From Acidobacteriota bacterium (GTDB lineage Bacteria; Acidobacteriota; UBA6911), in the NCBI GenBank assembly GCA_012719455.1, contig JAAYAJ010000012.1, forward strand, positions 1 to 34,622: DNA of 34,622 nt, given 5' to 3'. Positions 9,322-11,444 of this stretch are shown one piece after another. The stretch's first letter is position 1. Each line of letters begins with the position of its first letter. The notes under the pieces were generated by a model. That model was not told the origin of the DNA and searched no databases. It worked only from the letters and a program-made list of their open reading frames with translations. Made by a program: the position numbers and the translations under genes.

Positions 9322-9392
9322 CGAGGACGCTCCTTGCAGATTGGAATAGAGACACTGCCGATGGCTGCCGCCTGCTGCCGCGTGCCATGGCG

Positions 9393-9419
9393 ATTATACA
9401 GCTTTCGGCCCGATTCCAA
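9393..9419 (-). promoter_or_regulatory. Putative dnaN promoter
   Basis: A perfect TATAAT on the minus strand (9398-9393) is preceded by TTGGAA (9419-9414) with a 15-bp spacer, which is short; shifting to 17 bp gives GGTTGG. The transcript would have a leader of about 65 nt. The -10 is convincing, the -35 less so. Confidence 0.5.
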
Positions 9420-9451
9420 CCCTCAAAAAAAATGGAGAATTTCAGACCCTG

Positions 9452-9752
9452 TTTTCCACCGGACGTTTCACAGCTGAAAACATTGTAGATTAAAGATTTG
9501 TGTCTTTTTCCACAGCCGCCCGCCGTGAAAATCCTGTGGATTTCGCCCCCGCCGGGAATTTCCACAGGATGCCAGGCTTTTCCACAGGGGAGGGAAAAAG
9601 TTTTGCACGCGCCGCGACCGCTCCGGCACCGGGGGAGAGAGGCTTTTCCACATATCCACAGGACATTCTACTACTACTGGTATAGCCGAATAATAATTAT
9701 ATAGAAATAGACGAAGGGACGCGCGCAGGCGCTTAAAAACCATTAAAAACCA
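9452..9752. other. Proposed replication origin (oriC) with DnaA boxes, DnaA-trios and AT-rich unwinding region
   Basis: The dnaA-dnaN spacer holds a cluster of DnaA boxes with local consensus TTTTCCACA: exact copies at 9506-9514, 9578-9586 and 9644-9652 on the plus strand; variants ATTTCCACA (9558-9566) and ATATCCACA (9652-9660, overlapping the previous box by one base); AAATCCACA on the minus strand (9543-9535); and a one-mismatch copy at 9452-9460. After the last two boxes come 7 nt (GGACATT), then CTA three times (9668-9676), then an AT-rich tract (9681-9710) and two tandem copies of TTAAAAACCA (9733-9752). Boxes, short spacer, trinucleotides, AT-rich DNA is the order of the DnaA-trio unwinding element described in Bacillus subtilis. 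Origin function is inferred. Confidence 0.82.
9668..9676 (-). other. DnaA-trio repeats
   Basis: Three uninterrupted CTA units on the plus strand read 3'-GAT-GAT-GAT-5' on the complementary strand, matching the published DnaA-trio consensus 3'-(G/A)A(T/A)-5'. They lie 7 nt after a tandem pair of DnaA boxes and immediately before AT-rich DNA. The single-stranded DnaA filament would therefore extend toward dnaA. Confidence 0.7.
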
Positions 9753-9768
9753 AGGAAAAGGATATCGA

Positions 9769-11073
9769 TCAGCGTAGCGATTTGACGATGTCGTCGACGG
9801 TGGCAGAAATCTTCGGGTCTTTCTTGCGCAGGGAATCGATTTTGCGGATGGAGTGCAGCACGGTCGTGTGGTGCTTTCCCCCGAAATCCTTCCCGATCTG
9901 CGGCAACGACTGTTGAGTCAGCTCCTTGCAGATGTACATGGCGATCTGCCTGGGGAGCGCGATCGAGCGGGCGTTGCTCTTTGCCTTCAACTGGGCCGGC
10001 TTGAGGGAGAAGAAGGAGGCGACGGCGCGCATAATGGCGTCGGGGGAGACGGCGGCGTTCTCCTCGGTCGTGAAACCGCGCAGGACCTCCCGGGCGTAGT
10101 CGGTGTCAATGTCGGCCGGGTCCAGCCCGTCGAGCGACGCGCGGGCGGTCAACCGGGTCAGGGCCCCTTCCAGTTCGCGCACGTTGGAGCGGATTCCCCC
10201 GGCGATGAACAGGGCGACGTCGTCCTTCAGGTGGAAATTCTCCGCCTGCGCCTTTTTCCTGATAATGGCCAGCTTGGTTTCAAGATCGGGCGGCTGGATG
10301 TCGGCGATGAGGCCCCATTCGAAGCGCGAGTGGAGCCGCTCCTCCAGGGTGGGGATCTGCTTGGGGGGGCAGTCGCTCGTGATCACGATCTGTTTCTGGC
10401 CGTCGTACAGGGCGTTGAAGGTATGAAAAAACTCTTCCTGGGTCCGTTCCTTCCCCGCGATGAACTGGATGTCGTCCATGAGCAGAACGTCGATGTTCCG
10501 GTATTTCTTCCGGAACTGGATGGTGCGGTCGTAGCGGATGGCGTTGACCAGTTCGTTCATGAACCGTTCCGAGGACATGTAGGCCAGCCGGACGGAGCGG
10601 TTGCTCCCCTGGATCATGTTGCCGATGGCGTGCATCAGGTGCGTTTTACCCAGTCCCGCGCCCCCGTACAGGTAGAGAGGGTTGTAGGCCTTTGACGGGC
10701 GTTCCCCTACTGCGCGGGCGGCGGCATGGGCCAGCTGGTTGCTGCCGCCGACGACAAAGGTGTCGAAGGTGTATTTCGGAATCAGAAAAGGGTTGGATTC
10801 GGTCCCCTGGGGCTCCGGCTGCAGAGCGGCCGCCCCCGCGCTTTCGGCCCTGACCTCGAGCGAAAAAGTGGAGTGGTTCAGGGCTCCGGCCGTTTCAAGC
10901 AGGAGAGTGGAGTAATTTTCCAGCAACCCCTTGCGGAAACTCTCGGTGGGGACGGTCAGGCGCAGGACCCCGTGGTCGTTGCCGCGGTAGACGATGGGGC
11001 GGAACCAGGTTTCAAAACACTGGGGATTCAGGTGTTTTTCAACAGTAGCGAGGACCTGGTTCCAGAAATTCAT
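9769..11073 (-). CDS. dnaA: Chromosomal replication initiator protein DnaA
   Basis: A 434-residue AAA+ initiator that binds DnaA boxes and melts the origin. Domain I starts MNFWNQVLATVEKHL; a short linker covers about 75-95; the ATPase core has Walker A GGAGLGKT (137-144) and Walker B LLMDD (197-201), and a sensor region with NVRELEGAL (297-305). Domain IV carries the box-binding signature FGGKHHTTVLHS (397-408). His401 replaces the aspartate usually found there (GG(R/K)DHTT). The start at ATG 11073 gives a normal DnaA N-terminus; the in-frame GTG at 11127 lies inside a DnaA box and would add 18 unrelated residues. No strong Shine-Dalgarno is visible. Confidence 0.97.
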   Translation of the reverse strand: MNFWNQVLATVEKHLNPQCFETWFRPIVYRGNDHGVLRLTVPTESFRKGLLENYSTLLLETAGALNHSTFSLEVRAESAGAAALQPEPQGTESNPFLIPKYTFDTFVVGGSNQLAHAAARAVGERPSKAYNPLYLYGGAGLGKTHLMHAIGNMIQGSNRSVRLAYMSSERFMNELVNAIRYDRTIQFRKKYRNIDVLLMDDIQFIAGKERTQEEFFHTFNALYDGQKQIVITSDCPPKQIPTLEERLHSRFEWGLIADIQPPDLETKLAIIRKKAQAENFHLKDDVALFIAGGIRSNVRELEGALTRLTARASLDGLDPADIDTDYAREVLRGFTTEENAAVSPDAIMRAVASFFSLKPAQLKAKSNARSIALPRQIAMYICKELTQQSLPQIGKDFGGKHHTTVLHSIRKIDSLRKKDPKISATVDDIVKSLR

Positions 11074-11444
11074 AGTTAACCCAAACGCGGGGAGAGATTT
11101 CAGCCGCAGTGCAAATCTGTTTTCCACAGGTGTGGAAAACCTGTGGAAAACAGACAGACAACCCCCAACAGCGACGGTATGACCCGTTGCGCCGTCCCTG
11201 AAACATTGAATGTCAGGATTTCGGTGGTGTCGTTGTTCTCAACAACGGAGCGAACATTAACACACGGTTAAGAACACATTCAACAAAAAAAACGGGTGGT
11301 TTTCCCAAAATTGTTTTTTACTTGAAAACCCAGTAAAAATGCGGTTGCAAGGTCCCCCATCGGTTCCGGATGCGGAAAAACAAAGGACAAAAAAATGCTT
11401 GCATAAATACAATGTCCTATAATACTCCACATAGGATATTATAT
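11074..11444. promoter_or_regulatory. dnaA upstream region with a second DnaA-box cluster and several palindromes
   Basis: This gene-free stretch holds three exact TTTTCCACA boxes, one forward (11120-11128) and two reverse (11139-11131, 11150-11142). The first two form a 10-bp palindrome with a 2-nt centre (11119-11140), 46 bp before the dnaA start. Farther up are perfect inverted repeats CGTTGTT/AACAACG (11231-11247), TTAAC/GTTAA (11257-11271), TTTTTAC/GTAAAAA (11315-11339) and TCCTAT/ATAGGA (11415-11436), plus AT-rich DNA at 11380-11450. DnaA self-repression and a second origin half are both plausible. The dnaA promoter is not obvious; TTGAAT-18-TAATGT (minus strand, about 11280-11251) is a weak candidate. 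Confidence 0.7.

Follow-up and report, generated by a model that had tools for sequence, protein, structure and literature searches.

A probable BUS-type replication origin, probably inverted in place between dnaA and dnaN, in an Acidobacteriota genome

The intergenic region separating dnaA from dnaN in this Acidobacteriota genome is likely, as judged from its sequence, to be a chromosome replication origin of the basal unwinding system (BUS) type. It is highly probable that this region is a conventional BUS origin which underwent one small in-place inversion between dnaA and dnaN, its internal geometry being preserved. The window, by which we mean the whole 34,622-nt stretch of DNA analysed here, is contig C64, one of the 107 that make up a draft genome of 2.79 Mb. 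Its minus strand carries, in order, an IHF-like gene, HIT, dnaA (11073-9769), the gap (9322-9768), dnaN (9321-8212), recF, gyrB and gyrA. The two genes that flank the putative origin were identified by TIGR00362 (dnaA, 1e-155, likeliest start ATG at 11073) and TIGR00663 (dnaN, 2e-89), and recF by TIGR00611; the IHF-like gene, gyrB and gyrA were named from their own sequences. The gene order past dnaN is maintained in relatives. The closest DnaA proteins come from Acidobacteriota metagenome genomes (75% to "Acidobacteria bacterium isolate nzgw75"), and a DciA homologue is present. The gap measures 447 bp and has a GC content of 51% in a neighbourhood of about 64%. A TATAAT-like -10 element on the minus strand at 9393-9398, the presumed dnaN promoter, is found as GTATAATC before dnaN in most members of the genus and family. 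Neither RNA families nor tRNAs were detected in the 34,622 nt, and a terminator scan of the gap, which is weak evidence, returned nothing.

Eight 9-mers with at most two mismatches from TTATCCACA were found in the gap, at 9452 (+), 9484 (-), 9506 (+), 9535 (-), 9558 (+), 9578 (+), 9644 (+) and 9652 (+). Selection by conservation in relatives gave a set of about nine that probably comprises the real boxes: 9452, 9464 (weak), 9506, 9535 (-), 9558, 9578, 9601 (weak), 9644 and 9652. The first-pass annotation had counted six to seven boxes, the last two in tandem. The match at 9484 (-) is not conserved in relatives and was rejected as a box. The outermost boxes, TTTTCCACC (9452-9460) and the weak CGTTTCACA (9464-9472), both on the plus strand, have counterparts in relatives at equal offsets from the trios. 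Two copies of TTTTCCACA (9506-9514 and 9578-9586, both +) were recognised by the box scan, by their position in relatives and in the TTWTCCACA count, and ATTTCCACA (9558-9566, +) by the scan and its position. The sole reversed box of the array, AAATCCACA (9535-9543, -), is matched by a reversed box at equal offset in most relatives. The weak box TTTTGCACG (9601-9609, +) occupies a conserved position, filled by TTTTGCACC in G004/G006 and by CTTTGCACC/CATTGCACC in G001/G007. Finally, direct reading, the scan, the Bacillota gaps and the relatives all point to the overlapping tandem boxes TTTTCCACA and ATATCCACA at 9644-9660 (+), each of which (9644-9652 and 9652-9660) has a single mismatch where two were allowed. 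The motif TTWTCCACA occurs six times in the 34.6-kb window (0.22 expected), far too often for chance, three times in the gap and three times just upstream of dnaA; the box array is single-copy in the genome.

Behind the tandem boxes, the plus strand reads GGAC, ATT and CTACTACTA (9668-9676), followed by DNA that is 80% AT. The sequence CTACTACTA is found once in the window, exactly at this place (0.00 expected). The DnaA-trios extend over 9665-9682, where the plus strand reads ATT CTA CTA CTA CTG GTA and the minus strand carries the 3'-GAT-5' units. The usual spacer between tandem boxes and trios is 4 nt. The first-pass annotation had described seven nucleotides, CTA units and AT-rich DNA at 9681-9710, all of which we found at these places by direct reading. 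The 7-nt length is real, but it is better split into a 4-nt spacer (GGAC) and a degenerate first trio (ATT), because the arrays of relatives then superpose to the base. With this reading the trio run starts 4 nt behind the boxes, and at least three 3'-NAN-5' units lie within 16 bp of a box. Exact CTA units are few, three in the window and two in the sister genomes, whose trios read ATT CTT CTA CTA. The AT-rich stretch at 9681-9710 (24 A/T of 30), the presumed unwinding element, is directed toward the dnaA stop and partly conserved in the sisters. Two tandem copies of TTAAAAACCA (9733-9752, +) had been proposed to extend it; the repeat exists, but it is missing in both sister species (G004 and G006) and was for this reason rejected as part of the unwinding region and not counted in the module. 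Alignment with relatives, a check suggested at the outset, showed that trios and box spacing are conserved in the normal-sense relatives and in the sisters, with two exceptions: G005 has a normal-sense array and no clear trios, and the trios of G013 are degenerate. As far as sequence can be read, the array can therefore do without trios in this family.

Since dnaA and dnaN lie on the minus strand, one meets first the boxes, then the trios and then the AT-rich DNA when going from dnaN to dnaA along the plus strand. In the Bacillota gaps compared, including that of Bacillus halotolerans (TTATCCACAAATCCACAAGCCCTACTATTACTTCTACTACTT; L053), this order runs from dnaA to dnaN. The module also points toward dnaN in the genus members G001, G003, G007 and G008 and in the family members G011 and G012. 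The canonical arrangement, with the module directed toward dnaN, was absent from the window and from loci L114 and L116, which read in the opposite sense; the direction of the window was found only in G004 and G006, whose DnaA proteins are 86-87% identical to that of the window. The Bacillus subtilis-like order and polarity proposed earlier accordingly holds within the module (box, box, short spacer, CTA trios and AT-rich DNA, as in B. halotolerans) but not with respect to dnaA and dnaN, against which the module is inverted compared with Bacillus and with its own genus. The direction relative to these two genes had no place in the first-pass annotation.

The positions of the boxes argue for inversion of the array as a whole. 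Counted from the trios in the module sense, they lie at -216, -162, -133 (reversed), -110, -90, -67, -24 and -16 in the window and at -213, -159, -130 (reversed), -107, -87, -64, -21 and -13 in the normal relatives, the latter values being pooled, as no single relative has a readable box at every position. Taking ATT as a degenerate trio at the head of the run removes the constant difference of 3 nt. Five of the six non-anchor boxes coincide with those of G003 in place and strand, and none of 200,000 random placements did as well. Full-length matches of a profile built from seven normal relatives to the three gaps were confined to the opposite strand (E 1.9e-31, 7.2e-30 and 1e-28); in gene sense, the best match of the profile in these gaps had an E value of 0.007, and the best shuffle scored 3.3 bits. 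The flanks are unaffected: HIT-(IHF)-dnaA and dnaN-recF keep their order and strand in relatives wherever the fetched stretches reach, and the dnaN leader with its TATAAT-like element (9393-9398) is conserved in gene sense, which places this element outside the inverted block. The block itself, with array, trios and unwinding element, spans 9440-9720. Because the dnaN leader and the neighbours are not turned, the breakpoints must fall within about 9399-9452 and 9711-9768, where no inverted repeats were seen by eye. That diverged species keep the spacing to the base across 200 bp suggests a common constraint on the outer boxes and the unwinding module, as one unit.

A tree of DnaA and DnaN groups the three inverted genomes in a single clade, nested inside the genus, with support 100/100. 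As the other genomes with a readable module around this clade have the normal direction, a single inversion on its branch suffices. The survey took in 184 gaps at loci with dnaA-dnaN synteny, of which the Acidobacteriota set contributed 110: the module pointed toward dnaN in 76, solely toward dnaA in three (the window, G004 and G006) and in both directions in one. The word "rare" applies to the surveyed sample: the finder was crude and called no module in over half of the gaps, Bacillota and Acidobacteriota are over-represented, and a few loci represent the same genome more than once. The profile run over all loci gave 55 normal-sense matches and three inverse ones, the latter being this clade. 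Two further bins of the same genus (G002 and G009) have neither dnaA, dnaN nor the array and contribute nothing to the comparison. The gap with both directions belongs to Fuchsiella alkaliacetigena (Bacillota; L087), where two convergent box-trio modules share an AT-rich centre (TATCCACAACCCCCTATTACTACTACTAGCATGTTTTATTATATATAAACATGTAGTAATAATAGTAATAGATGC...TTGTTGATAA), an almost symmetric arrangement for unwinding in which DnaA could be loaded onto both strands. A search of the open literature yielded no earlier report of a BUS or oriC reversal between related species, which is not proof of absence.

Several features give indirect support to the gap as an origin: the dnaA-dnaN-recF-gyrB-gyrA synteny, the boxes, the trios, the AT-rich DNA, the single-copy array and a skew shift at the gap. 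The skew at four-fold sites was compared among minus-strand genes only, because gene-by-gene skew is confounded by coding strand; it is about zero or negative to the left of the gap and positive to the right (Mann-Whitney P 0.0006, neighbouring genes not being fully independent). The cumulative GC-skew minimum lies at 7-8 kb, a local measure taken on one contig of a draft genome. Aligned with Bacillus DnaA, the protein keeps the arginine finger (R264, here R250) and has a conservative, hydrophobic replacement at the ssDNA-binding position of the ISM (I190, here V176). According to PMC8287927, both the arginine finger and I190 are required for unwinding in B. subtilis.

The scan also revealed a second cluster upstream of dnaA, unlisted in the earlier annotation, in which three boxes (+ - -) occupy 11120-11150 with steps of 11-12 nt. 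The triple is conserved in the genus and family, where it lies between about -100 and -40 relative to the dnaA start, and farther up in G005. It would suit a bipartite origin, as its upstream half, or autoregulation of dnaA. At the level of the class, many genomes have a dnaA-dnaN gap of only about 24-106 bp (L125, L130, L133, L134, L135, L137, L140 and L142). The origin site is hence not universal in the class; in these genomes it must be sited elsewhere, perhaps in front of dnaA. Two DnaA genes occur in each of three genomes that belong to a single genus of the same class (G029, G030 and G035; L136, L137, L138, L141 and L142); one copy in G030 is partial at a contig end, and dnaN adjoins one copy and not the other in G029 and G035. 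The second gene may be a genuine paralogue, or the bins may be contaminated. Closer to the window, about 250 bp that may hold a small gene separate the dnaA stop from the array in G003 (L113), and a long hairpin follows the dnaA stop in G001 (L112); both insertions sit outside the array.

Other explanations of the locus were weighed against these data. The first-pass annotation treated it as a BUS origin in ordinary arrangement, with an unremarkable direction, and the internal order and polarity do match the Bacillus module. We nevertheless regard this as extremely unlikely, given that the module is reversed relative to dnaA and dnaN while all 76 dnaN-pointing gaps, including those of its own genus, have the opposite direction; both the gaps of relatives and the opposite-strand profile match refute the ordinary orientation. 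The reversal might have come about without inversion, a new BUS arising independently at the dnaA end as the old one near dnaN decayed. Point mutation can create DnaA boxes and short trio repeats, and Fuchsiella holds both directions in one gap. Such an origin would, however, hardly account for a whole array of about 200 bp that superposes inversely to the base, reversed box included, and the gaps of the three inverted genomes retain no remnant of an old module near dnaN. This scenario appears very improbable to us.

The box cluster might instead serve mainly to regulate dnaA and dnaN or to titrate DnaA, with initiation taking place elsewhere. DnaA boxes are able to regulate promoters, a second cluster precedes dnaA, and several genomes of the class manage almost without a dnaA-dnaN gap. 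Against this stand the trios and AT-rich DNA in BUS order, the skew shift at the gap and the single-copy array, and we consider a mainly regulatory or titrating role, with initiation elsewhere, unlikely. An assembly artefact in a metagenome bin has to be considered for draft genomes of about 100-230 contigs, but the same inversion in diverged sequence from three species (DnaA 86-87% identical to that of the window) makes its probability negligible.

Under the preferred reading, an in-place inversion of a working origin, 9440-9720 would be the unwinding half of the chromosome origin, with DnaA binding the fixed array of about nine boxes. A DnaA oligomer would grow from the tandem pair at 9644-9660 onto the minus-strand trios (5'-TAGTAGTAG-3') and would then melt the AT-rich DNA behind them, as in the Bacillus BUS. 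The shortness of the exact trio run, the unclear or degenerate trios in G005 and G013 and the small gaps in many genomes of the class weigh against this reading. The sequence comparison shows the elements with their conserved spacing, the inversion, its single occurrence on the tree and the local skew shift; DnaA binding, unwinding and initiation at this gap we infer. In the common ancestor of the window genome, G004 and G006, the array, trios and unwinding element were inverted as one block, the dnaN promoter, dnaA and all neighbours staying in place; this kept the arrangement that unwinding needs and swapped the way it faces with respect to the genes and the two replication arms. The BUS is asymmetric: it sets the strand that is coated by DnaA and, in current models, also the strand that is given the loader-guided helicase. 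In Bacillus, reversing boxes 6/7 alone inactivates incC (PMC6669920). Inversion of the complete block keeps the module geometry, which would explain why it could be tolerated. The helicase on the trio strand is thought to travel 5' to 3' through oriC (PMC10201434). The trio strand being the minus strand here, this helicase would go toward dnaN, and toward dnaA in the normal relatives. Transcription of dnaA would meet the AT-rich end first, about 58 bp past the dnaA stop.

We see the chances as evenly balanced that this is a natural inversion experiment on oriC, in which a complete BUS was turned round with respect to dnaA, dnaN and the chromosome arms and kept its function. If it is true, the arm served by the trio-strand helicase is swapped, dnaA transcription enters the unwinding element first, and the near-universal direction toward dnaN would be historical or regulatory, not mechanical. 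To our knowledge, whether BUS direction between dnaA and dnaN matters has not been put to a test. An inverted clade beside sisters of normal direction makes this question testable through fork symmetry, initiation control and dnaA/dnaN expression.

Compared with the incC BUS of B. subtilis, the module shares overlapping tandem boxes (9644-9660 being the equivalent of boxes 6/7), a 4-nt spacer, 3'-GAT-5' trios carried by one strand and followed by AT-rich DNA, and a location in the dnaA-dnaN gap. Like the bipartite Bacillus origin, the locus has a further box cluster ahead of dnaA. The orientation of the boxes toward the trios is the same in the window, B. subtilis, B. halotolerans and other Bacillota gaps. 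Unlike incC, the array and module of the window point to dnaA and not to dnaN, the host is GC-rich, the exact trio run is shorter (three CTA, followed and preceded by degenerate units), and the array is fixed, with about nine boxes over 210 bp. The window also conforms to the published search rules for predicted BUS across bacteria (Pelliciari et al. 2021, PMC8287927): a box with at most two mismatches, a spacer of at most 16 and at least three NAN trios, 3'-GAT-5' being best. We know of no discussion in that paper of how the module is oriented with regard to dnaA and dnaN. The oriC arrays of the genus (G001, G003, G007 and G008) and family (G011, G012 and G013) are homologous to that of the window, have their boxes equally spaced and are likewise accompanied by the upstream triple, but these normal-sense arrays have the opposite direction between dnaA and dnaN. 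As in the bipartite origins of B. subtilis and Helicobacter pylori (PMC4285127), dnaA stands between two box clusters, of which one has an unwinding element; in contrast to those origins, the unwinding half is reversed relative to dnaA, and bipartite function is putative here. The BUS layout itself has already been published; what this locus adds, on the comparison of related sequences, is a probable BUS origin that has been inverted naturally, complete and in place.
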